Assembly (NCBI GenBank): GCA_028736075.1
Contig: CP117875.1
Location: forward strand, 3,100,001-3,164,000
DNA length: 64,000 nucleotides
Reading direction: 5' to 3'
DNA from: Chryseobacterium sp. KACC 21268
GTDB lineage: Bacteria; Bacteroidota; Bacteroidia; Flavobacteriales; Weeksellaceae
The translations under genes and the position numbers were made by a program. The notes below the pieces were generated by a model. The model was not told the DNA's origin and did no database searches. It worked only from the letters and a program-made list of their open reading frames with translations. Positions 32,328 through 54,443 of this stretch are shown here, piece after piece (position 1 is the stretch's first letter; each line of letters opens with the position of its first letter).

Positions 32328-32906
32328 ATGAAAAGAGCAATTGCAAATATGGACCTAGATACTTTCTTTGTCTCCTGTGAACCGCTGAGAAACTCCGAAT
32401 TGGAGAAAAAGCATGTGATCATAGGAGGTAGAGACCGTGGTGTGGTGGCATCATGCTCATATGAGGTCAGGAAATTCGGAGTACGGTTTGCGATGCCTAT
32501 CAAGATGGCACTGCGATTATGTCCGGAAGCAAAAGTGATCAAGGTTAATATTTACGTATTTGCAAACCTCTTGCAGGATCTAATAGTTGAAAATCCTGGG
32601 CTTAATTATTTGCGCGAAGTTATATACGCAATTTTAGTTAGGCGTGATTTCAACATATTTGCAATATTTGATTTCATAAGGGGGGCTGTAATATTAGATA
32701 AGCTATTTTCAGGAGCAGAACTATTACAGTTAGCAACTAGTTTTACTGTATTTGGTTATCGTCTATCTGAAAACATCGATTTGGCAAGCAATCAAGAAGG
32801 AGTAAAGACTGAAGTAAAAAGTCAGGTACAGGCAATGGATAAACAGCTTTTAAAATATCAGAACGAACTCAACAAAATACTATCAAAGCGAAAGAAACGA
32901 TGCTAA
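32328..32906 (+). pseudogene. Truncated dinB fused to foreign sequence
   Basis: The first 72 residues are the start of a Y-family DNA polymerase (DinB/Pol IV): RAIANMDLDTFFVSCEPL, VVASCSYEVRKFGVRFAMP, ALRLCPEAKVIK. From about base 32544 the likeness stops and another 120 codons follow (NIYVFANLLQDLIVENPG ... FGYRLSENIDLASNQ, ending NKILSKRKKRC) that belong to no Pol IV. The palm's second acidic pair, the fingers and the little-finger domain are missing, so it cannot be a polymerase. A 24-codon frame (32899-32973, MLKSVDAYLKINNANKHLDS) overlaps its end and may be part of the foreign piece. A deletion or insertion of accessory DNA made the join. Confidence 0.75.
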
Positions 32907-33104
32907 AATCAGTAGATGCTTATCTCAAAATAAATAATGCTAATAAGCATTTAGATAGTTTTGTGAGATTTTAAAAGTAATTATTAACTCTTTGGGTATT
33001 GCCGAAGTGGGGCATTTGAAACCGTCAGTAAAAATATAGTGCAAAGGCTGATATAAGTAACAATTGTTGATGAGCTCCGTCAGCCCCCATTATGGAAATA
33101 CCTT

Positions 33105-33119
33105 GTTACAGGCAGTGTT
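33105..33119 (+). repeat. Left 15-bp inverted repeat
   Basis: GTTACAGGCAGTGTT; it matches the reverse complement of 34625-34639 at 14 of 15 positions. Confidence 0.6.
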
Positions 33120-33146
33120 TTTAGTTTCCTTAGTATTCACCGTCTT

Positions 33147-33887
33147 TTACCAAGGACAACTTGCAGGTTCTGGAAAGTATTCTTCGCTAATAAACTTTCC
33201 TGTTGGTCCCTTTTCGTCAATCATAGCATATTTAGCAATTCGTTTTCCTGCTAGTTCAGGAGTACTTGTACCTTGATGTCCTGTAAAATCAGTTTGGGTA
33301 TAACCTGGGCAAACCATATTTATTTTAAATTTACTACTGTCACGAAGTTCATACGCAAGATTTACAGTGTACATATTTAATGCTGCTTTACTTGATTGAT
33401 ATACCGATGTTTTAAATTCATTTGTGGGACTTTCTGGATTAGAAGCAATTGTAATTGAAGCCATAGCAGTACTTACATTTACAATTCGAGGTTGTTCTGA
33501 TTTTTTTAGTAACTCAACAAATATTTGCGTTACACTTACTACTCCAAATAGATTAGTTGCAAATACTGAATAGAATTGTTCCAATGTGGCAGTAAGTGCT
33601 GATTGTGGAAAACCACCAGAAATTCCTGCATTATTTATCAAAACATCTAATTTACCTTGTTCCTTTTCAATGATGTTTTTAGCTGATAAAATAGATTTTG
33701 AATTGGTAACATCTAATTCAATAGCTTTTATATTTCCAAACCCACTTGCTAATAGATCATTTACTGCTACTTCTCCTTTCTGAATATCTCTACAACCAAT
33801 GTAAACAAAATATTCATTTTGTAATAACTCTCTTGCTGTGGCTAAACCAATACCTTTATTAGCCCCTGTGATTAATGCTGATTTCAT
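33147..33887 (-). CDS. Short-chain dehydrogenase (SDR, carbonyl-reductase-like)
   Basis: A 246-residue NAD(P)-dependent oxidoreductase. Residues 6-12 hold the cofactor motif TGANKGIG; then NNAG at about 89-92, an active-site Ser region (VNVSTAMAS) and the catalytic YxxSK form in SVYQSSKAALNMY. The tail with VCPGYTQTDFTGHQGT is as in classical carbonyl-reductase-type SDRs. Full length. A perfect 16-bp palindrome, also present before the Crp-type gene, lies 57 bp upstream, so it is probably controlled by that neighbour. Confidence 0.9.
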   Translation of the reverse strand: MKSALITGANKGIGLATARELLQNEYFVYIGCRDIQKGEVAVNDLLASGFGNIKAIELDVTNSKSILSAKNIIEKEQGKLDVLINNAGISGGFPQSALTATLEQFYSVFATNLFGVVSVTQIFVELLKKSEQPRIVNVSTAMASITIASNPESPTNEFKTSVYQSSKAALNMYTVNLAYELRDSSKFKINMVCPGYTQTDFTGHQGTSTPELAGKRIAKYAMIDEKGPTGKFISEEYFPEPASCPW

Positions 33888-33943
33888 TTTTTATTCTTTT
33901 TTAAATTAATAATGCAAAATTGCAATGAATAAAAATGAGCTGA

Positions 33944-33959
33944 TTTACCATTTGGTAAA
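33944..33959. promoter_or_regulatory. 16-bp operator palindrome before the SDR gene
   Basis: TTTACCATTTGGTAAA is a perfect dyad (7+2+7). The same 7-base arms occur before the Crp-type gene at 34564-34579. It lies 57 bp upstream of the SDR start. Confidence 0.75.
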
Positions 33960-33963
33960 AAAT

Positions 33964-34530
33964 CTAACGTATATTTTTTCTAATTCTGCTTAATGATTGT
34001 TGAGTAACTCCTAAATAAGATGCAATATAAGTTAAAGGTATTCTATTGATAAGGGATGGATGATTATTCATAAATTCAAGATACCGAGTAGTAGCATCTT
34101 CTGAAATTACAGGACTTTTTCTCGATTTTTGATAAAGGCATTTTTGAACCATTTTGTTTTTGATATTATCCCAACCCACAATGGTATGAGTAAGCTCATC
34201 CCAATCATCGTTTGAAAATAAGATCAGTTTACAATCAGTACAAGCCTGCAAATATTCAGTAGATACTGTATTAGCTTTAAAATTAATATAGTCAGCTATA
34301 AGGCTATTTTCAGTTATGAAACATCGGGTAATTTCTTCACCTTTGTTATTGTAATAACAACCACGAACAACGCCGTCCACAAGGAAACCGACTTGTCGGG
34401 GAATTTTTCCCGCTTCGGAAAAATAGTTTTCTTTCGAAAGTTTTAACTCTTTAGCTTTGCCTGCAATAAGGTCAATTTGCTGTTTGTTCAAGTTGCCAAA
34501 TTGCAAAATATATTCTATCAATTCTTCCAT
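33964..34530 (-). CDS. Crp/Fnr-family transcriptional regulator
   Basis: A 188-residue regulator with an N-terminal cyclic-nucleotide-binding-like beta-roll (about 20-115; GFLVDGVVRGCYYNNKGEEI, FITENSLIAD) and a C-terminal helix-turn-helix (IPLTYIASYLGVTQQSLSRIRKNIR). It lacks the Cys cluster of Fnr and the usual cAMP-binding Arg-Ala pair is not evident, so the ligand is unknown. Its own promoter has a -7 box (TAACTTTG, 34536-34543) only five bases before the ATG, so the mRNA may have almost no leader. A 16-bp palindrome sits at about the -33 region, which points to self-control and joint control of the SDR gene. Confidence 0.88.
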   Translation of the reverse strand: MEELIEYILQFGNLNKQQIDLIAGKAKELKLSKENYFSEAGKIPRQVGFLVDGVVRGCYYNNKGEEITRCFITENSLIADYINFKANTVSTEYLQACTDCKLILFSNDDWDELTHTIVGWDNIKNKMVQKCLYQKSRKSPVISEDATTRYLEFMNNHPSLINRIPLTYIASYLGVTQQSLSRIRKNIR

Positions 34531-34535
34531 TGTCG

Positions 34536-34543
34536 CAAAGTTA
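34536..34543 (-). promoter_or_regulatory. -7 box of the Crp-type gene
   Basis: TAACTTTG on the minus strand fits TAnnTTTG; five bases separate it from the ATG. Confidence 0.6.
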
Positions 34544-34563
34544 GCAAATAGCTACGTCTGTCA

Positions 34564-34579
34564 TTTACCAATTGGTAAA
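34564..34579. promoter_or_regulatory. 16-bp operator palindrome before the Crp-type gene
   Basis: TTTACCAATTGGTAAA, a perfect dyad that differs from the site before the SDR gene only in the two central bases. It overlaps the expected -33 element of the Crp-type promoter. Confidence 0.75.
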
Positions 34580-34624
34580 AAGCAGGTTGTGATGTCAAAT
34601 TATTTTAATTGGCTTGGGTGTCCT

Positions 34625-34639
34625 AACATTGCCTGTAAC
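34625..34639 (+). repeat. Right 15-bp inverted repeat
   Basis: AACATTGCCTGTAAC; inverted copy of 33105-33119 with one mismatch. Confidence 0.6.
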
Positions 34640-34650
34640 TTTTATATAAC

Positions 34651-34666
34651 CGCTGTATTTACAGCG
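34651..34666. repeat. Perfect hairpin CGCTGTA-TT-TACAGCG
   Basis: A 7-bp perfect dyad with a two-base centre, just outside the right inverted repeat. It has no T run of its own. It may be a recombination or protein-binding site. Confidence 0.5.
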
Positions 34667-34744
34667 CGTATCTATCCATATTCGACTGAATATGCGATAA
34701 AATACACGCTTTTATCTTTTTTCAGTTTATTATTACCTAACAAA

Positions 34745-34778
34745 AAAAAGAGCCATTACATTTGCAATGGCTCTTTTT
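34745..34778 (-). terminator. Terminator of the large T9SS adhesin gene
   Basis: Thirteen-base perfect stem AAAAAGAGCCATT / AATGGCTCTTTTT with an eight-base loop and A/T runs on both sides, 21 bp beyond the adhesin stop. Confidence 0.85.
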
Positions 34779-34798
34779 AGAATAATTTTATTAAATTA

Positions 34799-37700
34799 TT
34801 ATTTCTTAACAAACTTGATTGTTTGTACACCCTTATCTGTAAAGATGTTAATCAGATAAGTTCCTTGAATCAATGTGTGGACGTTTAGTTTCCTTTCGTT
34901 CGACATTGTTCTCTCAGAGATTTTCTTACCATCAATAGACATAATCACAATCTTAGTAATTTTATCTTCACCACTGAAATGTAATATATCATTAACTGGG
35001 TTTGGATAAATTTGAAGCTTGATATTACTGCTCGGATTATTCACTCCTAAAGTATCATTATAAGCCAAAACAGCTAGCGACGTTTTAGACTCGCATCCAC
35101 CAATTGTCTGAGTAGCGTAATAAGATTTATTATTTACTATTAAAGTAGTCATCGGTAAAGCATTGATGTGATCTGTCGCATCAGTAGCTGTTGCATACCA
35201 TTTAATTCCCTGACCATTAACAATCAGTACACTCAGTGTATCTCCCGAATTGAAAGTTTGTGTTGTAATACCAGTCGGCGCATTCACCACATCTGCTTGG
35301 GTGATTGTAAATGATTGAGTTGTCTGACAACCATTGGCATCTGTTACAGTGACTAGGTATGGTCCTGCTGCAAGGCCGTTTGCGGTAGCTGCTGTTCCTC
35401 CACTTGGTGACCAACTGTAAGAGTATAATCCAGTTCCGCCAGTAACATTCACTGTTGCGGAACCAGTTGCACTACCATTACAAGACACATTGGTTTGTGA
35501 TCCTGCTGTTGCTACCAATGCTGTTGGTTCTGTTATTGTTACAGATACATTTCCTGTACATCCATTGGCATCTTTTACAGTTACAGTATAAGTTCCCGCT
35601 GTTAATCCCGCTCTGTCCTTTGTAAGGATACCACCGCCCCAGTTATATGTGTACGGCGCAGTTCCGCCAGATGGAGTGAGTGTAATTGATCCATTGGATC
35701 CGCCATTACAGCTTACATTATTTTTAGTTGCAGATGCACTAACTGATGATACTGTCAAAGCTACACTGTTGGATGTTGCTGTAGGTGCACAAACCCCTGA
35801 TGCAACAACTCTATATAAGTAACCATTTAATCCCGCTGTTGCTCCTGTTATTGTTAATGTAGAGGATGTAGCTCCTGAATATGGTGCTCCATTGCTGATA
35901 TTGATAAAACCCGCTCCCTGATCTACTTGCCATTGGTAACCTGTAGCATTGCTTGCTGTTGCTGTAAAAGTAGTTGTTGCTCCTGCGCAGATGGTACCTG
36001 CACTTGGCTGGGATGTTATCGCAGGTGCTGAATTTACTGTCAGTGTTGCACTGTTGGATGTTGCCGCAGGCGAACAAGCTCCAGTAGCTACAACTCTGTA
36101 AGCATAACCATTTAATCCCGCTGTTGCTTCTGTTATAGTCAATGTTCCTGTGGTAGCTCCTGAATATAGTGTTCCATTGCTGATATTGATAAATCCTGCT
36201 CCCTGATCAACTTGCCATTGGTAACCCGTAGCATTGCTAAATACTGCCGAGAAAGTTGTGTTAGATCCCGCACAAACAGTTCTTGCACTTGGCTGGGATG
36301 TTATCGCAGGTGCTGAATTTACTGTCAGTGTTGCACTGTTGGATGTTGCCGCAGGCGAACAAGATCCAGTAGCTACAACTCTGTAAGCGTAACCATTCAA
36401 AGCAGATGTTGCTCCTGTTATCGTTAATGTAGAGGATGTAGCTCCAGAATATGGTGCTACATTGCTGATATTGATAAAACCCGCTCCCTGATCAACTTGC
36501 CATTGATAACCTGTAGCATTGTTAAATACTGCAGAGAAAGTTGTGTTAGATCCCGCACAAATAGTTCTTGCACTTGGCTGAGAAGCTATCGCAGGTACTG
36601 AATTTACTGTCAATGTTGCACTGTTGGATGTTGCCGCAGGCGAACAAGCTCCAGTAGCTACAACTCTGTAAGCGTAACCATTCAAAGCAGATGTTGCTCC
36701 TGTTATAGTTAATGTTCCTGTGGTGGCTCCTGAATATGGTGCTCCATTGCTGATATTGATAAATCCTGCTCCCTGATCAACTTGCCATTGGTAACCTGTA
36801 GCATTGCTAAATACTGCCGAGAAAGTTGTGTTAGATCCCGCACAAACAGTTCTTGCACTTGGCTGGGATGTTATCGCAGGTGCTGAATTTACTGTCAGTG
36901 TTGCACTGTTGGATGTTGCCGCAGGCGAACAAGATCCAGTAGCTACAACTCTGTAAGCGTAACCATTCAAAGCAGATGTTGCTCCTGTTATTGTTAATGT
37001 AGAGGATGTAGCTCCTGAATATGGTGCTCCATTGCTGATATTGATAAAACCCGCTCCCTGATCTACTTGCCATTGGTAACCTGTAGCATTGCTTGCTGTT
37101 GCTGTAAAAGTAGTTGTTGCTCCTGCGCAGATGGTACCTGCACTTGGCTGGGATGTTATCGCAGGTGCTGAATTTACTGTCAGTGTTGCACTGTTGGATG
37201 TTGCCGCAGGCGAACAAGATCCAGTAGCTACAACTCTGTATGCATAACCATTCAAAGCAGCTGTTGCTCCTGTTATAGTCAATGTTGCTGTGGTGGCTCC
37301 TGAATATGGTGTTTCATTACTGATATTGATAAATCCTGCTCCCTGATCTACTTGCCATTGATAACCTGTAGCATTGCTAAATACTGCAGAGAAAGTTGTG
37401 TTAGATCCTGCACAAATAGTTTTTGAACTTGGCTGCGAATTAACAGATGGCGAAGAATTAACCGTCAAAGTCGCTCCATTGGATACAGCTACCGGTGCAC
37501 AAGTGCCTGTTGCTATTAATCTATATATATAACCATTAAAAGCAGCTGTTGCTCCTGTTATAGTTAATGTAGCTGTTGTAGTTCCTGAATATTGTGAATT
37601 ATTACTGATATTGATAAATCCTGCTCCCTGGTCAACTTGCCATTGGTAACCAGTAGCATTATTTGCAGCAACAGTAAAAGTAGTAGTTACTCCTGCGCAA

Positions 37701-38671
37701 ATTGTACTTGCGCTTGGCTGGGATGTTATCGCAGGTGCTGTACAAGCAGAATAAAAAGAATATCCCGTAGGTACATTAACAACTGTAGGATCATCATATT
37801 TCAAAGCAGTCCAATTGTTTCTATTTAATATAGCTGCCTTTAAAGCTGCCAGAGAAGAAAATGGAGCTCCAGCACCATTGAACTGTCCTTTCGTATAATT
37901 CTGAATATTGGTAGCAGGTGGTGTTGGCTTAAAGAAGCCCACCCAAAATGCACTGCTGGCATTTAAGCCAGGCGGCATATTGGAAGAACTTGGTCCTGCA
38001 GAACAAGCTGAATTAATCCCTATTGTATCCCATGAAGTATCAGTTGTATGTACTGAATAATAATCAATTGGGCAGTAATTCCAATGAAAACCCCCAATCA
38101 TAGTTACTCCACTTGCTGCCGGGTTTCCTGCGCCACCCTGAAACGCTATAATTTGATCTCCAGATGGTGATGATAATGACAGACCATTGGCATTACTTCC
38201 CGCAATGGAAGCTACTGTGCCTTTTGCAACATTATTGACTTTGGCACTTAAACTTTGAATAACCACCTCTGTACCAGCTGTCACATTATCACTTCCCAAA
38301 GACCAGGAAATTGAGCCTTCAGTTCCGCCATTAGCGGACTGCCAAGTATTATTTCCGAAATACCCTCTGTCGGTAAAATAAATAACTGTATTAGGTTGAA
38401 GATCTTTTAAAGCTACAAAGGAAAACTTATCGTCAGTAACTGTTTTAGTTGCATCAAAGGAAGTGATTAAAATATCTCCAGCTGATAGCGTTGTCTGAGA
38501 TTTTACAATGCCGGTTCCACTAAGCACCATTATAAAAATCATTAAATAGAAAGATTGTACTTTCTGCGATTTAATTTTTATAAGTTCAGGACCTGAAAAA
38601 AGATGACAGATAAGTCGCCGTAGTCCTGAAAAAATAAAATCCATTTTTAGTGTAGGATAAAATTTTCTCAT
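34799..38671 (-). CDS. Large T9SS adhesin with Ig-like and SprB repeats
   Basis: A 1290-residue cell-surface protein. The N-terminus is long (signal core FYLMIFIMVLSGTGIVKSQ ends near residue 59). About 60-310 is a lamin-tail/nuclease-adjacent-like domain (GDILITSFDATKTVTDDKFS, VIYFTDRGYFGNNTW). About 315-980 holds seven 95-residue repeats (TICAG...TFxAxxxNATGYQWQVDQG...LTITGA...VATGxCxPAAxSNSATLTV), Ig-like units found in gliding and attachment proteins. Two SprB-like repeats follow (NNVSCNGGSNGSITLTPSGG, NVSCNGSATGSATVNVTGG), and the end is a type A T9SS sorting domain (LQIYPNPVNDILHFSG ... QTIKFVKK). Probably an adhesin. Single gene with its own terminator. Confidence 0.9.
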   Translation of the reverse strand: MRKFYPTLKMDFIFSGLRRLICHLFSGPELIKIKSQKVQSFYLMIFIMVLSGTGIVKSQTTLSAGDILITSFDATKTVTDDKFSFVALKDLQPNTVIYFTDRGYFGNNTWQSANGGTEGSISWSLGSDNVTAGTEVVIQSLSAKVNNVAKGTVASIAGSNANGLSLSSPSGDQIIAFQGGAGNPAASGVTMIGGFHWNYCPIDYYSVHTTDTSWDTIGINSACSAGPSSSNMPPGLNASSAFWVGFFKPTPPATNIQNYTKGQFNGAGAPFSSLAALKAAILNRNNWTALKYDDPTVVNVPTGYSFYSACTAPAITSQPSASTICAGVTTTFTVAANNATGYQWQVDQGAGFINISNNSQYSGTTTATLTITGATAAFNGYIYRLIATGTCAPVAVSNGATLTVNSSPSVNSQPSSKTICAGSNTTFSAVFSNATGYQWQVDQGAGFINISNETPYSGATTATLTITGATAALNGYAYRVVATGSCSPAATSNSATLTVNSAPAITSQPSAGTICAGATTTFTATASNATGYQWQVDQGAGFINISNGAPYSGATSSTLTITGATSALNGYAYRVVATGSCSPAATSNSATLTVNSAPAITSQPSARTVCAGSNTTFSAVFSNATGYQWQVDQGAGFINISNGAPYSGATTGTLTITGATSALNGYAYRVVATGACSPAATSNSATLTVNSVPAIASQPSARTICAGSNTTFSAVFNNATGYQWQVDQGAGFINISNVAPYSGATSSTLTITGATSALNGYAYRVVATGSCSPAATSNSATLTVNSAPAITSQPSARTVCAGSNTTFSAVFSNATGYQWQVDQGAGFINISNGTLYSGATTGTLTITEATAGLNGYAYRVVATGACSPAATSNSATLTVNSAPAITSQPSAGTICAGATTTFTATASNATGYQWQVDQGAGFINISNGAPYSGATSSTLTITGATAGLNGYLYRVVASGVCAPTATSNSVALTVSSVSASATKNNVSCNGGSNGSITLTPSGGTAPYTYNWGGGILTKDRAGLTAGTYTVTVKDANGCTGNVSVTITEPTALVATAGSQTNVSCNGSATGSATVNVTGGTGLYSYSWSPSGGTAATANGLAAGPYLVTVTDANGCQTTQSFTITQADVVNAPTGITTQTFNSGDTLSVLIVNGQGIKWYATATDATDHINALPMTTLIVNNKSYYATQTIGGCESKTSLAVLAYNDTLGVNNPSSNIKLQIYPNPVNDILHFSGEDKITKIVIMSIDGKKISERTMSNERKLNVHTLIQGTYLINIFTDKGVQTIKFVKK
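35745..37739 (-). repeat. Seven tandem 285-bp repeats inside the adhesin gene
   Basis: Units of 285 bp (95 codons) run for about 2 kb. Some are almost identical at DNA level: a stretch of about 230 bp near 35845-36072 recurs at 36985-37212, exactly four units away, while neighbours differ more. Confidence 0.88.
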
Positions 38672-39401
38672 GTTTATTTATTTTTTGTTTGTTCATGGTA
38701 GTTTTAGAAAAATCACAATTATAATTAATTATTAATCAATGATTTTCACAAAACTAATTATTTTTTTACAATTTCAAAATTAAATTATCGTTTTTACATA
38801 CAATTGCGTATAAATACCTAATCGATCATTTGGCTCGATCCTTATTAATATAGTTTCTTCAAAGAACGCATCGATAAGACTTGATTAAATGATTGCAGTG
38901 GTTTTTCAATCGAAATGAAAATAATTTGAAAATTCTGAAATTTGAAATCTGCAGGAGAAATAATTGAAATAGATCAAAATTAGCAGTTATCATTGACCTA
39001 TGATATTCGATGGATAAGGATAAATCCCCTGAGATCAAGAGGCATTCGGGAGATTGTAAGTATAACTTCCCGTGATCCATATCCGTAATAACATGAAATT
39101 GGAATATTTAAAAAAAATGATATAATTGACTTTGCATTTTTTCCATGGCAACAAATCAAAAATAATTGATAGTCATAATTTGCGATCTATTATGTGATCA
39201 ATCTAAAAAGAACATCTAAAATAAGCTATCACCTTTAAAAATTCGCTGACCATATTTGCCTCGTCATTATTATATTACATCAACCTAAAAGCTCCTATAT
39301 TACATCATTTACTGAAATTATGAATTATTATTGATCATTGAGCAACTATAACTATATTAATGGCACATTATTGGTTATTTTCCGAGCATAAAATTTAAAA
39401 T
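38672..39401. other. Long intergenic region
   Basis: About 730 bp between the divergent adhesin and esterase genes. Very AT-rich. A 73-codon minus-strand frame at 38859-39080 has no domain or start context and I do not call it. No repeat or RNA gene seen. Confidence 0.45.
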
Positions 39402-40514
39402 ATGAAAAACAACATTACAAATTGGTCATTGGCAATATTTTCATTAACAATGACAATATCCTGCTCAAAAAATGAATCTTCAAAATCTGTTGATTCCAAA
39501 TCCGGAGATACACTAAATATCTCTACTCTAAAACCATCCGGACCAGCACCGGAATGGGGAAAAACGATCAAACCTGAAATGCAGGCTGTCATCGAAAAGC
39601 TAGCCAGCTATGGCGACAAACCCATTGAAACTCTTACTCCTGAAGAAGCTCGAAAAAACCATACGCCCACAAATGCTGTTATGGATCTTGTAAAAGAAAA
39701 TAATATTGCCGTTCCAGCACCTAAGGTTGATACAACAGGAGTTAATATAAAAATTGCAGGCGGTAAAATTCACGCAAGAGTTTATACACCGAAAACCGGC
39801 AGAGAATCATACCCAATTATCGTTTACTATCATGGTGGAGGCTTCGTCATTGCGGATCTTGATGTTTACAATGCATCAGCTCAGGGATTAGCAGAGCAGA
39901 CTGAATCAGTAGTGGTATCTGTTGCTTATCGTTTAGCTCCGGAAAATAAATTTCCAACAGCACATAATGATGCTTTTGCAGCCTACGAATGGGTAATTAA
40001 AAATGCCGCAACAATTAAAGGTGATCCTAAAAAAATTGCGGTGGTTGGTGAAAGTGCAGGAGGAAATCTTGCCACTAATGTATCAATTATGGCAAGAGAC
40101 AAAAAAATTATGACTCCACTACATCAGGTTCTTATCTATCCGATTGCACAATCTGACATGAATACTACATCATATACCAAATACGCTGGTGCAAAACCTC
40201 TGAACAAACCGATGATGGAATGGTTTACAAAACATTACCTCAATAATATGAATGAAGCGAAAGACCCGAGGATTTCCCTAATTAATGCAAATCTAAAAGG
40301 TCTTCCCCCAACAACGATTATTACCGCGGAGATCGACCCGCTACATGATGACGGAACGATGTTGGCTGACAAGCTTTCTGCTGCAGGAGTAAAGGTGAAC
40401 AGCAAAAACTACGAAGGTGTCACTCACGAATTTTACGGAATGGCGATCGTGGTACCACAGGCAAAAGAAGCTCAGGCTTATGCTGCTGAACAACTGAAAG
40501 CTGCTCTTAAATAA
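39402..40514 (+). CDS. Alpha/beta hydrolase (HSL-type esterase), likely lipoprotein
   Basis: A 370-residue exported esterase. The N-terminus ends in a lipobox-like MTISC (Cys21), so it is probably membrane-anchored in the periplasm or outer membrane. The hormone-sensitive-lipase marks are the oxyanion loop HGGGF (His144), the nucleophile Ser218 in GESAGG, the acid in EIDPLHDDG and the His in VTHEFYGM. It probably splits short-chain esters; the substrate is unknown. A terminator follows, so it is a single-gene unit. Confidence 0.9.
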   Translation: MKNNITNWSLAIFSLTMTISCSKNESSKSVDSKSGDTLNISTLKPSGPAPEWGKTIKPEMQAVIEKLASYGDKPIETLTPEEARKNHTPTNAVMDLVKENNIAVPAPKVDTTGVNIKIAGGKIHARVYTPKTGRESYPIIVYYHGGGFVIADLDVYNASAQGLAEQTESVVVSVAYRLAPENKFPTAHNDAFAAYEWVIKNAATIKGDPKKIAVVGESAGGNLATNVSIMARDKKIMTPLHQVLIYPIAQSDMNTTSYTKYAGAKPLNKPMMEWFTKHYLNNMNEAKDPRISLINANLKGLPPTTIITAEIDPLHDDGTMLADKLSAAGVKVNSKNYEGVTHEFYGMAIVVPQAKEAQAYAAEQLKAALK

Positions 40515-40546
40515 TATCGCAACTTTATTTAAAATTTGAAACTATA

Positions 40547-40579
40547 AAATCCCCATTATAAGACTGGGGATTTATTTTT
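40547..40579 (+). terminator. Terminator of the esterase gene
   Basis: Stem AAATCCCCA / TGGGGATTT with a loop of about nine bases, then TATTTTTA, 33 bp after the stop. Confidence 0.8.
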
Positions 40580-40620
40580 AGGATAATAAAAAATTTAATA
40601 ATACCAAATCAATCCACAAT

Positions 40621-41745
40621 ATGAATCAGCAAGAAAAAGATAACATTAAAAATTATGTTAGATATTCAGACGAGATCGAAGTTAAGCAACCCAACGAAGA
40701 TGAAGACAGTCGCGCAGTGGTAGAATCAATGGCGAGAGTCAATAAAATCATGTTTGAGAGGTATCGCCACGCCGTGCGTGATGCCCACGCCAAAAATCAT
40801 GGAATTCTTCGCGGAGAATTAGAAATCTATGACAATCTGCCTGAACATCTGGCTCAAGGTCTTTTTAAAAAACCGTGGAAGTACCCAGTGATCATCCGTT
40901 TTTCTACAGCATCTGGAATGATAGAACCCGATAAAAAATCTTCTCAGCGGGGAATGGCCATTAAAGTGATCGGTGTTGAAGGCGAAAAGTTTTTAGCCGA
41001 AGATAAAGATGCTCTGACCCAGGATTTTCTTTTAGTCAATTACCCGATCATCCCAACAGGAACAGTCAAAGATTATCTTGATCAACAGAAAAAAGTCGAG
41101 GAATATATTAACACACCCGAACTTTTTCAGAGTGTTCAGGGAGCGATGCTCGTTGCGGGAAGAAAAATTAAAAATTTAATTGGAAAAGAAGAAGACCCCA
41201 ATCATTTCAGTATACCCGGATCACATATTTTAGGTGACCGTTACTTCAGTATGGCAGCAATACGATACGGAGATTATGTTGCTAAAATTTCCATTGCTCC
41301 GAAATCAGAAAATGTCGCTAGCCTCCACGGGAAAGATATGGATGAAAATTTAATTAAGAATGAACCTGAAAGTTTTCTGACCACCATCGTAAAAAACTTT
41401 TTTGAAAATCAGACTGCTGTCTACGAACTCTCTGCACAGTTGTGTACTGATCTTGAAAAAATGCCGGTTGAAGATGGTTCCGTTCAATGGATGGAAGATG
41501 TCAGTCCGTTTCAGACAATAGCAAGTTTGACTATCAGTCCGCAAAACACGTTCAGCCCGGAACGAAGAGTGTATGGTGATGATGTTCTGAGTTTCAACCC
41601 TTTCCATTGTCTTTTAGAACACAGACCACTCGGTAACATCATGCGTGTAAGAAAACTCGCCTATGAAACCTCATCCAAATATCGTCATCATATGAATGCT
41701 GCACCACGCGTGGAGCCTAAAAGTATTGATGAATTGCCCGATTAA
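40621..41745 (+). CDS. Catalase-family haem protein (y4iL-like)
   Basis: A 374-residue protein of the short catalase-like group. The N-terminal part has the distal-His region RHAVRDAHAKNHGILRGELE (His56), then VIIRFSTASGM and SQRGMAIKVIGV, as in catalases; the end has SFNPFHCLLEHRPLGNIMRV and RKLAYETSSKYRHHMN, the region that supplies the haem-side Arg and Tyr. It lacks the large C-terminal domains of KatE. The biochemical role in this subgroup is not settled (peroxidase or hydroperoxide processing). It is an intact relative of the frameshifted gene at 18456-19429. No signal peptide. Confidence 0.87.
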   Translation: MNQQEKDNIKNYVRYSDEIEVKQPNEDEDSRAVVESMARVNKIMFERYRHAVRDAHAKNHGILRGELEIYDNLPEHLAQGLFKKPWKYPVIIRFSTASGMIEPDKKSSQRGMAIKVIGVEGEKFLAEDKDALTQDFLLVNYPIIPTGTVKDYLDQQKKVEEYINTPELFQSVQGAMLVAGRKIKNLIGKEEDPNHFSIPGSHILGDRYFSMAAIRYGDYVAKISIAPKSENVASLHGKDMDENLIKNEPESFLTTIVKNFFENQTAVYELSAQLCTDLEKMPVEDGSVQWMEDVSPFQTIASLTISPQNTFSPERRVYGDDVLSFNPFHCLLEHRPLGNIMRVRKLAYETSSKYRHHMNAAPRVEPKSIDELPD

Positions 41746-50935: not shown

Positions 50936-52114
50936 TCAAGAAACAAAATTTTCTACTTCTATATTGCATGTACTGTGTAGATCAGAATTTAAATTTTCAC
51001 CTATATTAAATATGCTAAGTTTAATTTTTTCAGAAGCTTCCTTTTTAAGGCTGTCTACAATTTTGGCGTAGATCTCTGTGGTTGAAATATTTTTATGTCC
51101 AAGCAATTTTGAGACTGTGTAAATCGAAGTTCCTGCAGCAAGTTGCAATGTTGCGAACGTATGCCGAAAACCATGAAAAGTAAAATGTTTTTGTACTCCT
51201 GCATTTACAAGCCATTTTTTTAATTCTATCACAACATGTCCATATTTTAAACCTTCGAAAACGCGAGAATCTGGATCGCCGGCCTGGCCTAACAATTGAA
51301 CAATTTGATCAGATACTGGAAAATATTCTGCACTGTCCGTTTTTTCCTGACTGTACAAGATGTAATAATTTCCCTCATTACCCTGGAGTTCTTTCCAGAG
51401 AAGTGTTACAACATCAGAATAACGAAATCCGGTCATTGCGGAAAAGAGTCCTGCTTTTTTTACTATTTCAGAATCACAATGTGCAGAAGCCATTTTTTCC
51501 AGCTCGTGCATAAATAAGAATTCACGATGCGTATCTTCAGGTGTAATACTATCTACAATATGACCCAGGTCGATTGGTAAATATCTTTTTTTAAAGGCTT
51601 CTTTTAGAGTTTTTTTAAATTTAGCGAAATAGCTTACTGCGGTATTCGTTTTTATTTTTCTTTTGGCACGTCCTATTCCTGGTGAGGAGAGAAGAAAATC
51701 AGCATACTCTTCACAAAAGCTTTCATTTAAATGTGTGAATGGCAAAAATTCTCCTGCAAAAGCTTTGAAGTAATTAATAGACATTCGCCAGTTATGACTA
51801 CCCTCTCTTTTAGAAGCCTCCTCTTCAAAAAAATCGATGAAGTTTGATCTCAATTTAGAATCTGATAGAAAATCAAAACGTCTGTTTTGAACATCCAATT
51901 GGCGTTTTGCTCTTATATACTCTCCTAGACTTAACGTTTCTTTGTTATGGTCCTTTTCTAAATTATTTTTGGGACGTGTATAGATGTAAATTTTTAAATA
52001 ATATTTTCTCTGTAGTTTGCCTGTTTCCAAATTTGGAATAGGTGGATATATATCTAAAAACAAACTATGTTTTCCCCCAGCAATTGGTTTTTTCCTTAAA
52101 GTAACTTTTGACAT
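50936..52114 (-). CDS. Tyrosine recombinase (integrase)
   Basis: A 392-residue site-specific recombinase of the type found in Bacteroidota conjugative elements. It has an N-terminal arm-binding region, a SAM-like core-binding domain (about 90-180) and a catalytic domain with the full set: Arg231 (TGFRYSD), Lys258 (EKTDSAEY), His314 and Arg317 (HGFRHTFA), His340 (LLGHKNIS) and the nucleophile Tyr349 (TTEIYAKI). It appears functional. It probably integrates and excises the small element around it. Confidence 0.93.
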   Translation of the reverse strand: MSKVTLRKKPIAGGKHSLFLDIYPPIPNLETGKLQRKYYLKIYIYTRPKNNLEKDHNKETLSLGEYIRAKRQLDVQNRRFDFLSDSKLRSNFIDFFEEEASKREGSHNWRMSINYFKAFAGEFLPFTHLNESFCEEYADFLLSSPGIGRAKRKIKTNTAVSYFAKFKKTLKEAFKKRYLPIDLGHIVDSITPEDTHREFLFMHELEKMASAHCDSEIVKKAGLFSAMTGFRYSDVVTLLWKELQGNEGNYYILYSQEKTDSAEYFPVSDQIVQLLGQAGDPDSRVFEGLKYGHVVIELKKWLVNAGVQKHFTFHGFRHTFATLQLAAGTSIYTVSKLLGHKNISTTEIYAKIVDSLKKEASEKIKLSIFNIGENLNSDLHSTCNIEVENFVS

Positions 52115-52222
52115 GACACTAACTTTTAATTAATATAGAAATTTGATTGGCACAGTGTTACAGGATTGGTCGCTATTGGCGTCCTATTTCATTAGCTAGC
52201 GTAACACAATGAATTATTTCAG

Positions 52223-52807
52223 TTAGTATCTGATATGAAATCTTTTAAGTATTGGATCAATTGCCTGCTTTTTAATATACACAAACTTGCCCTCTCTATA
52301 TTTAGGGATATTGTTTCTGCATATAATTTTTCTTAATGTTACCTCAGCAAGGCTGTACTTTGCCAAGATCTGTCCGACTGTGTAGCAGTCTTTGATTGGT
52401 GGGCGTTTGTCTTCAACTTGCACTTCATTGTGAATGTCAACTTCCTGAATTTGATTACTGAACATCCCGTCAAGATCTTTTTTGAGAATTCTGGTTTTTC
52501 TAATTGATAAATTGATGGCATTGAGTCTTCCTGATTTTATCATGTGGTGAACTGTTCTGCGATCACATTTCAGCATTGAGGCAACATCATTAACGGTCAA
52601 ATACTCTAATGTTTTTGCAGCAATAGAAGGAAGTTGCCTTCTATTTTGCGTTTCAACCTCGCTTGCCTCGATCTTTTGTTTTTTAATTCTTGCTTTATAT
52701 GCCCTTTTAGCACAGTTGTCTCCACAGTACCTCGTAACGGTAGTTTGTGCTATAAATTCCTGCCCGCAATGTTGACAAATCCGAGCAATTTTAATGTTTG
52801 AACTCAT
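52223..52807 (-). CDS. Zinc-ribbon and double HTH_17 protein of an integrase module
   Basis: A 194-residue DNA-binding protein. It starts with a Cys cluster (CQHCGQEF, RYCGDNC), a probable zinc ribbon, followed by a basic helix, then an HTH_17 domain (LTVNDVASMLKCDRRTVHHM, RLNAINLSIRKTRILKKDLD) and a second one (YTVGQILAKYSLAEVTLRKI, YREGKFVYIKKQAIDPI). Such genes commonly lie upstream of integrases in Bacteroidota elements. It is 108 bp upstream of the recombinase gene. A 10-bp repeat array lies 28 bp before its start, where it could bind itself. Confidence 0.85.
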   Translation of the reverse strand: MSSNIKIARICQHCGQEFIAQTTVTRYCGDNCAKRAYKARIKKQKIEASEVETQNRRQLPSIAAKTLEYLTVNDVASMLKCDRRTVHHMIKSGRLNAINLSIRKTRILKKDLDGMFSNQIQEVDIHNEVQVEDKRPPIKDCYTVGQILAKYSLAEVTLRKIICRNNIPKYREGKFVYIKKQAIDPILKRFHIRY

Positions 52808-52834
52808 AAAATTAATTTTATGGGTTATTAAAAC

Positions 52835-52884
52835 ACATTAAGGTACTTTAAGATACAATAAGGTTCATTAAGGTACATTAAGCG
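52835..52884. repeat. Array of 10-bp repeats (consensus AGGTACATTA)
   Basis: Four full units in exact 10-base register (52841, 52851, 52861, 52871), AGGTACTTTA, AGATACAATA, AGGTTCATTA, AGGTACATTA, with half units on both sides. The period equals about one DNA turn, so all copies face the same side. They lie just upstream of the HTH gene and beside the integrase module. Confidence 0.85.
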
Positions 52885-52931
52885 AAGTAATCTCTCCCTT
52901 GTTAGTAAAAAATTAATTATTATGGGTTTGA

Positions 52932-52988
52932 GGGACAAATGGGGGACAAATTTTGCAAAAACGGATCAAAATATGACAGATCAAAATA
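52932..52988. repeat. Two short direct-repeat pairs at the element's right edge
   Basis: GGGACAAAT occurs at 52932-52940 and 52943-52951 (11-base period) and GATCAAAATA at 52964-52973 and 52979-52988 (15-base period). They may be integrase arm or core sites. Confidence 0.5.
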
Positions 52989-53057
52989 AAATGAATTTTG
53001 ACTAATCATTTAATAATCAGCTATTTAATTTGTTTTAGTTTGATTGAATTTGTGCGT

Positions 53058-54443
53058 CTATTTGCCGATACAAAACTTCGAAAAAATATTCCCCAACACC
53101 TCGTCATTGCTAAACTCCCCAGAAATCTCACCCAGATGTTCCAGTGCATTTCGCAACTCATAAGCCAAAAGCTCGGTTGTGATTTTAGAACTCACGGCCT
53201 CCTCCACTTTTTCTACCGAATCCAGCGACTTCTTCAAAGCTTCAAAGTGGCGTTGGTTGGTAATGATAACATTCCCTTCTTCGGATTTCAATTGCTCTAC
53301 AAAAGAAGACAACTCGTTTTTAAGGTCCTGAATATTCTGATTCTCAACCGCCGAAATCTTTATAAAATCAAAATCAGTCTCAATCTCTTTTCGGAAAGCT
53401 TCTTCCACAAGTTCATACTTCGTAGGAAGCACTTCATCGATTTTTGTAGCACAGATGATTAGTTTCAAATCCTCTCGCAACAAAGGTTTCAAAATTTCAA
53501 AATCCTCAGAAAAATCCTCTGTTGACGCATCGGCCAAATACACCAAAACATCCGCAGAATCCACTTTTTCCTTGGCCTTCTTCACGCCAATTGCCTCAAT
53601 CTCATCCACAGTTTCACGAAGTCCAGCCGTATCAATTAATCTAAAAGCATTGCCTTTGATGTGCAAAATCTCCTCAATTGTATCGCGCGTCGTCCCAGCA
53701 ATATTACTCACAATCGCTCTTTCTTCTTTCAGCAAAGCGTTTAGCAAGGTAGATTTTCCTGCATTTGGTTTCCCGATAATCGCAACCGCAGTTCCATTTT
53801 TGATCGCATTTCCATACTGGAAACTGTCAATCAAAGAACTCAATTTAACTTCAATCCTATTAAGCAATTGATTAAGAGCCGATCTGTCCGCAAATTCCAC
53901 ATCTTCCTCTGCAAAATCAAGTTCCAGTTCTATCAGTGATGTGAAATTCAAAAGATCTCCTCTAAGAATCGAAATCTCCTGAGAAATCCCACCTTTCAGT
54001 TGATTCAGAGCTACTTTTCGGGACGCTTCGTTGTCAGACGCAATCAGGTCGGCGATAGATTCTGCCTGGGAAAGATCGATCCTTCCATTCATAAAAGCAC
54101 GCATCGTAAACTCCCCAGCCTTGGCCATTCTTGCGCCATTTTGAATCAAAACTTCCAGAATTCTTTTGGCAATATAGGGTGAACCGTGAAAAGAAATTTC
54201 CACAGAGTCCTCCGTCGTAAACGTCTTTGGAGCGCGGAAAACCGAGATCATCACCTCATCTATCACTTCATCTACTTCTTTTATAAAACCGTAATGCACA
54301 GTATGAGAATCCGCTTTTTCCAGATTTTTACCTTCAAATATTTTATTCACGATTTCAAAAGATTGCTCTCCAGAAACCCGTATAATTCCAATTGCCCCAA
54401 TTCCGTTGGCAGTTGCCAGTGCGCAGATAGTATCCTGATTCAT
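53058..54443 (-). CDS. mnmE: tRNA modification GTPase MnmE
   Basis: A 461-residue protein that, with MnmG, adds the carboxymethylaminomethyl group to U34 of some tRNAs. N-terminal folate-binding domain (DTICALATANGIGAIGIIRV), central helices, a GTPase domain with G1 GKPNAGKST (from residue 224), DTAG, and the C-terminal CIGK that takes part in catalysis. Full length. The integrase module ends downstream of it but has not changed its 3' end. Confidence 0.97.
   Translation of the reverse strand: MNQDTICALATANGIGAIGIIRVSGEQSFEIVNKIFEGKNLEKADSHTVHYGFIKEVDEVIDEVMISVFRAPKTFTTEDSVEISFHGSPYIAKRILEVLIQNGARMAKAGEFTMRAFMNGRIDLSQAESIADLIASDNEASRKVALNQLKGGISQEISILRGDLLNFTSLIELELDFAEEDVEFADRSALNQLLNRIEVKLSSLIDSFQYGNAIKNGTAVAIIGKPNAGKSTLLNALLKEERAIVSNIAGTTRDTIEEILHIKGNAFRLIDTAGLRETVDEIEAIGVKKAKEKVDSADVLVYLADASTEDFSEDFEILKPLLREDLKLIICATKIDEVLPTKYELVEEAFRKEIETDFDFIKISAVENQNIQDLKNELSSFVEQLKSEEGNVIITNQRHFEALKKSLDSVEKVEEAVSSKITTELLAYELRNALEHLGEISGEFSNDEVLGNIFSKFCIGK

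Follow-up and report, generated by a model that had tools for sequence, protein, structure and literature searches.

A probable integron-type gene cassette in a Chryseobacterium genome and the candidate integrases of its flavobacterial relatives

Integrons, whether of classes 1-3 or chromosomal, feature the integrase IntI and the sites attI and attC; in known integrons, attC-like hairpins with a G^TT crossover are the substrates of the tyrosine integrase, and the insert specific to IntI is thought to be essential for attC recombination. Integrons have already been listed for Bacteroidota (PMC8618304, PMC9024848), so that the system described here is a variant rather than a new category; a large IntegronFinder 2.0 survey recovered from Bacteroidetes a single complete integron and otherwise only integrases lacking arrays (PMC9024848). 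Loss by deletion and off-target insertion have been proposed as the routes by which solitary attC sites (CALIN) originate (PMC8618304). In Riemerella anatipestifer, aph(3')-IVb is reported to integrate with exactly 27 bp of 5' and 140 bp of 3' flank, an attC-like fold and no flanking homology, and lnu(H) and blaRATA likewise integrate free of homology by a mechanism that is unexplained (PMC13148043). The spread of the tpnF-tet(X3) module, in which tpnF is called a recombinase gene, has been ascribed to ISCR2, with integrons unmentioned (PMC7722449). In a literature search outside most subscription journals and bioRxiv preprints, we found no published description of flavobacterial integrons of the type considered below.

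We analyzed a window of 64,000 nucleotides from Chryseobacterium sp. KACC 21268 (genome G000), in which a first-pass annotation had pointed to a two-gene unit that behaves like a gene cassette without its own recombinase, of a type that it could not name. This was right, and the type can now be named as the integron-type (attC) gene cassette: the best reading, in which we have high confidence from sequence comparisons, is that the two genes of the window unit form a cassette belonging to a flavobacterial integron. Like known integrons, the system displays a G^TT crossover, attC sites at the 3' ends of genes with conserved R'/R'' arms, cassette arrays and an attI beside the integrase gene, with divergent integrases in the sister genome G008 and in further relatives. 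Unlike them, its integrases are without the IntI insert and score under the cut-off of the TIGR02249 profile, the complementarity of the arms covers the first 12-15 nt of the cassette, position 11 being a fixed mismatch, and the integrase of the P0001 type points towards the array. As in CALIN, both the window cassette and an array elsewhere in G000 have attC sites and no intact integrase; unlike CALIN, the window cassette lies at an attI-like site and not in an attC cluster.

Anatomy of the predicted cassette and its sites

The unit, formed by a short-chain dehydrogenase/reductase (SDR) gene and a Crp-like gene, is very probably a single integron-type cassette of 1,651 bp on the minus strand, with the following features (window coordinates):

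34639..34740, minus strand: attI-like imperfect palindrome ending ...TATATAAAAGTT, a putative cassette docking site, including the CGCTGTATTTACAGCG hairpin at 34651-34666
32988..34639, minus strand: predicted integron-type gene cassette, 1,651 bp, with the crossover G^TT at both ends (G 34639, G 32988), delimited by the attI-like site, the attC model and family comparison
34625..34639, minus strand: cassette start, the R'' arm GTTACAGGCAATGTT
34564..34579, no strand: operator-like palindrome TTTACCAATTGGTAAA before the Crp gene
33964..34530, minus strand: cargo gene 1, a Crp/Fnr-like regulator of 188 aa (cNMP-binding domain at 24.7 bits, under the Pfam cut-off of 27.5)
33944..33959, no strand: operator-like palindrome TTTACCATTTGGTAAA before the SDR gene
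33147..33887, minus strand: cargo gene 2, a short-chain dehydrogenase/reductase of 246 aa (adh_short, 131 bits)
33105..33119, minus strand: attC R' arm AACACTGCCTGTAAC, which is the complement of the cassette start with one mismatch, A against G, at position 11
32986..33107, minus strand: attC stem (R', L', terminal loop, L'', R''), matching the covariance model at 81.5 bits (E 1.7e-15), with the window row being one of the 16 rows that built this model
32958..32988, minus strand: post-cassette remnant GTTAATAATTACTTTTAAAATCTCACAAAAC, resembling the array-end sequence GTTATTAATTGCTATTAAAATCTCAAAAAACGAT; the homology with G008 stops at 32958

The cargo is compact, with two genes in one orientation, 109 bp before the Crp start and 159 bp after the SDR stop. 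Both operator-like palindromes fit TTTACC(A/T)(A/T)TGGTAAA, and the domains suggest that the cargo specifies a regulated SDR enzyme. The attC of the window cassette spans 33119-32988 and forms an imperfect palindrome 3' of the gene with R'/R'' (AAC...GTT) and L'/L'' arms. Directly after the arm comes a conserved second palindrome, AAC-A-RGGGTTTTGC-AATAG-YGSGGC ... GCCSCR-CCATC-GCAAAGCCCC-AAAAC-GTT; arm and second palindrome together have the architecture of an integron attC site. In the attC alignment, 90.4% of the cells are paired, 14 pairs show double changes and 58 cells are changed on both sides, a covariation that was reached in none of 500 shuffles and has no comparable counterpart when the stem is slid. 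The predicted single-strand fold of the circle junction has a z of -3.1 against shuffles on the bottom strand, which at -21.7 kcal/mol folds more stably than the top strand at -18.7 kcal/mol. Rfam 15 returned nothing at gathering scores, either on the array or on the window, where there were only two weak, unrelated matches.

The opposite end of the cassette adjoins a site that belongs to a wider family. Window 34600-34744, mostly just outside the right arm of the repeat, matches intergenic DNA of other family genomes, where it lies beside other genes; the aligned relatives are alike through ...ACAAGTT and divergent beyond. A covariance model of this site (R1) recovered 30 attI-like sites from 316 family genomes. 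The cargo behind these sites varies, and their conservation ends at the GTT, with neighbors that differ between genomes, as expected of a G^TT crossover. The second perfect hairpin of the first-pass annotation (CGCTGTA-TT-TACAGCG) is indeed present at 34651-34666, outside the right arm, where it is the tip of the attI-like imperfect palindrome and hence part of the neighboring site. In G008, behind the same cassette, there is a second attI-like site (E 2e-5) together with a GNAT gene. The right-hand neighbor of the window cassette is common to G000 and G008 and different in G096, which has the Crp-SDR unit and the right arm. The R1 model and the R3 model of the 3' sites were built partly from the loci described here, the window included; the second site of G008, the array sites and most genus sites lie outside their training sets. 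A search for an empty attI-like site by means of the array-end sequence gave four matches, all of them the ends of occupied arrays.

At many attI-like sites, the cargo opens with nucleotides (GTT and about 10 more) that recur inverted near its 3' end. Start and arm agree at 10/11 positions or better in 21 of 39 testable cassettes, versus 60 of about 1,530 pairings with the starts of other cassettes, the arm being chosen as the best match and the controls being handled alike. The same level is reached in the chromosomal arrays by 24/40 own pairs, versus 0/46 pairings with the next start and 36/1,554 other pairs; here, the arms at six array loci were placed by the model alone and not by match. 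Position 11 is an A in the start and a G in the arm in 23 of the 27 well-paired array cassettes, and the single mismatch of the window repeat is this same fixed one. Thirteen of the 40 cassettes fall under 9/11, a shortfall due in part to missed or decayed array members. We read cassette-specific pairing of start and arm, as it emerges from these comparisons, as the rule in the family.

Arrays and candidate recombinases

All 23 genomes of the genus display attC-like sites by the R3 model, with a best match per genome of E 0.05 or better and below 1e-9 in all but one. The window genome has ten, about eight of which form one array (C1:3,181,060-3,188,762) that starts 17 kb past the window end, behind an attI site (whole locus G000:C1:3,179,990-3,188,770; L367:5994-14763). 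Its integrase is a remnant of about 70 codons after an 832-bp deletion, leaving attC sites with no intact integrase. The orthologous place in G008 (L368) holds about 14 attC sites and a divergent tyrosine recombinase of 356 aa, i.e., a complete integron. The resemblance of the two genomes reaches as far as the GTT of attI, where different first cassettes begin. An attI beside an integrase gene together with an attC array is a property of the relatives' system and not of the window locus, where the attC is solitary and there is no integrase beside the cassette or its attI-like site.

R1-family sites in three genomes (G018, G004 and G240) start about 10 bp past the stop of a 347-aa XerC/XerD/IntI-like recombinase (P0001 in G018). 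Behind the P0001-family integrase genes that we examined (homologues of at least ~60% identity), mostly at about 95-105 bp, comes an attI-like site that closes with GTT, and then the cassette start; two such loci (L281 and L282) have identical attI sites and diverge exactly at the GTT. The integrases of the system retain the catalytic residues of tyrosine recombinases and, in an alignment with IntI1, IntI2 and a Vibrio IntI, are without the IntI-specific insert of ~30-50 residues, i.e., the additional domain of the IntI family. This insert is also absent from TnpF and from the genome's own Xer proteins. Against TIGR02249, the intact enzymes tested (four or more) scored about 180-207 bits versus a cut-off of 265, and in a tree with IntI the branches are too long to place these enzymes relative to it. 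The window genome has no intact homologue of the attI-associated integrases, its best tyrosine recombinase being 37% identical.

We infer that a tyrosine recombinase, related to IntI but distinct from it, would act on a cassette in circular form and connect its G^TT with that of an attC or attI-like site. The attC would be recognized as a folded single strand, with the opening GTT arm base-paired to the AAC arm close to the cassette's 3' end and the conserved L'/L'' stem lying within the fold. The R' and R'' arms would pair only in the circular cassette, and integration would put them at opposite cassette ends, which would give rise to the inverted repeat seen in the window. There, the cassette with the Crp regulator and the SDR gene would have docked at the attI-like site, in the neighborhood of which there is no integrase. 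Its probable route was off-target insertion, or else arrival in a broken array on the segment shared by G000 and G008.

It is also conceivable, though we consider it improbable, that a serine resolvase rather than a tyrosine integrase moves these cassettes. The closest relatives of the window attI-like site lie 3' of a PF00239 serine resolvase gene in G053, G147 and G143, and of a broken form in G092; in several genomes of a different genus, the resolvase gene precedes the site by about 215 bp (L220, L222, L223 and L224, that of L222 being in pieces). Against this, diverged members of the site family adjoin a tyrosine integrase at a fixed spacing, the genus arrays adjoin the divergent tyrosine integrase, and G^TT hairpins of this kind are tyrosine-integrase substrates in known integrons. 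We do not regard the resolvase as the platform enzyme; it is treated as a passenger and retained solely as a rival reading.

Two further loci with recombinases were recorded. In G086, three tandem 867-bp repeats of a 203-aa gene lie near a serine resolvase (L225:8233-10578); first taken for cassettes, they have no attC. Window 50936-54443 holds a tyrosine recombinase and small helix-turn-helix genes just past the mnmE 3' end, a classic place for island insertion, with no clear second copy of the mnmE end in the window.

The inverted repeat and its surroundings

The 15-bp inverted repeat described by the first-pass annotation is present (GTTACAGGCAGTGTT at 33105-33119, plus strand, versus GTTACAGGCAATGTT at 34625-34639, minus strand), with a match of 14/15 and a spacing of 1,505 nt, and the coordinates confirm that the SDR gene (33147-33887), the Crp-like gene (33964-34530), both on the minus strand, and the two operator-like palindromes lie between its arms. 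Contrary to what had been proposed, the unit does not end at the arms. The right arm forms the first 15 nt of the cassette, and the left arm is the R' half of attC; on the left, the unit continues for 117 bp past this arm, to 32988. Window 32958-35376 recurs in G008 at 97% identity within a different chromosomal context, and since this block exceeds the repeats, they are not the borders of what moved. The same 15-mer with other cargo, which the annotation had suggested searching for, was not recovered: with up to two mismatches, there are 10+11 genome-wide occurrences versus 11+9 for the reversed 15-mer, i.e., background, and among the 23 genus genomes, the exact pair recurs only in G008. A scan of the GTDB genome collection gave scattered single matches in unrelated phyla, and the one Chryseobacterium match examined lies inside an ordinary open frame. 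Absence of the pair elsewhere, with the genes fixed in place, had been offered as a refutation, for which it is unsuitable because each cassette carries its own version of the repeat.

The break in dinB (32328 to ~32545), at about 32545, lies 440 bp from the cassette and not at the repeat; the cassette therefore does not explain it and another event is responsible. Between the broken dinB and the cassette end lie ~410 bp of unidentified sequence (window 32546-32957). On the other side is a neighborhood with an SprB/Ig-repeat adhesin and a catalase (window 34799-38671 and 39402-41745; L052:7060-8315), of which window 35377-41063 is absent from G008: the greater part of the adhesin, half of the catalase and a hydrolase are gone, and the fragments are fused directly.

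A transposon or MITE-like unit, with the 15-bp repeats as terminal inverted repeats and a transposase acting in trans, would fit short imperfect inverted repeats flanking a compact two-gene unit. It is rejected here as highly improbable, given that neither the genome nor the genus holds a second copy of the repeat with other cargo, that the left border of the unit is 117 bp past the repeat, that no target duplication was noticed at the unit borders, and that the related cassettes each carry a repeat of their own with a single systematic mismatch. That two ordinary genes were shared horizontally and are flanked by an inverted repeat through chance is scarcely credible either: on its own, the repeat is weak and within chance, as dinucleotide shuffling of the same 2.6 kb yields at least one 14/15 inverted pair in 9 of 30 cases, and it gains meaning only within the start/arm rule, but its arms coincide to the base with the ends that the attC model and the attI-like site predict, and that rule is valid in dozens of cassettes.

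Resistance-gene cassettes and a possible flavobacterial integron lineage

The gene cassette reading extends to resistance genes. On Empedobacter plasmids, attC sites of the present type close lnu(H), arr and an aminoglycoside phosphotransferase gene; on a Riemerella plasmid, the type lies beside blaOXA. The Empedobacter lnu(H) cassettes have the same anatomy, and a change of the start from GTTA to GTTG between plasmids is matched by a change of the arm from CTAAC to CCAAC. Like the Riemerella units, in which a fixed 5' flank and a 3' flank of ~140 bp travel with the gene, the cassettes described here have an attC-like 3' flank, and the attC of lnu(H) is of the present type; unlike those units, for which the recombinase is unknown, a candidate integrase family and a site anatomy can now be given. 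This anatomy fits the homology-free integration in Riemerella, to which we tentatively link it.

A comparable arrangement is seen in the tpnF-tet(X3) module of Acinetobacter plasmids: TnpF, 46% identical to P0001, is encoded upstream of tet(X3), and an attC-like sequence starts ~20 bp after the latter. Unlike the present attC, that of the module is cut short, with unrelated sequence past the first half (plasmid pHH1107, L325:6199-8220). On a Klebsiella plasmid (L324:6154-7775), a recombinase 51% identical to P0001 lies 74 bp before the GTT that opens blaVEB-3. Overall, the findings suggest a flavobacterial cassette origin for several resistance genes that Gram-negative pathogens carry.

Compared with the published survey (PMC9024848), every one of the 23 genomes of one flavobacterial genus holds attC-like sites, many of them in arrays beside an IntI-like integrase. 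This makes testable both the recombination of folded attC sites without the IntI insert and the uptake of lnu(H) and aph(3')-IVb by Riemerella without homology. On balance, we lean slightly towards the view that flavobacteria in the family Weeksellaceae, and probably further Bacteroidota, possess a separate integron lineage. Its integrase would either never have acquired the insert or have lost it, and its cassette arms would be long and self-complementary; the lineage would have been overlooked because detection relies on IntI features, and it may be the source of clinically important resistance cassettes such as lnu(H), arr, tet(X3) and blaVEB.
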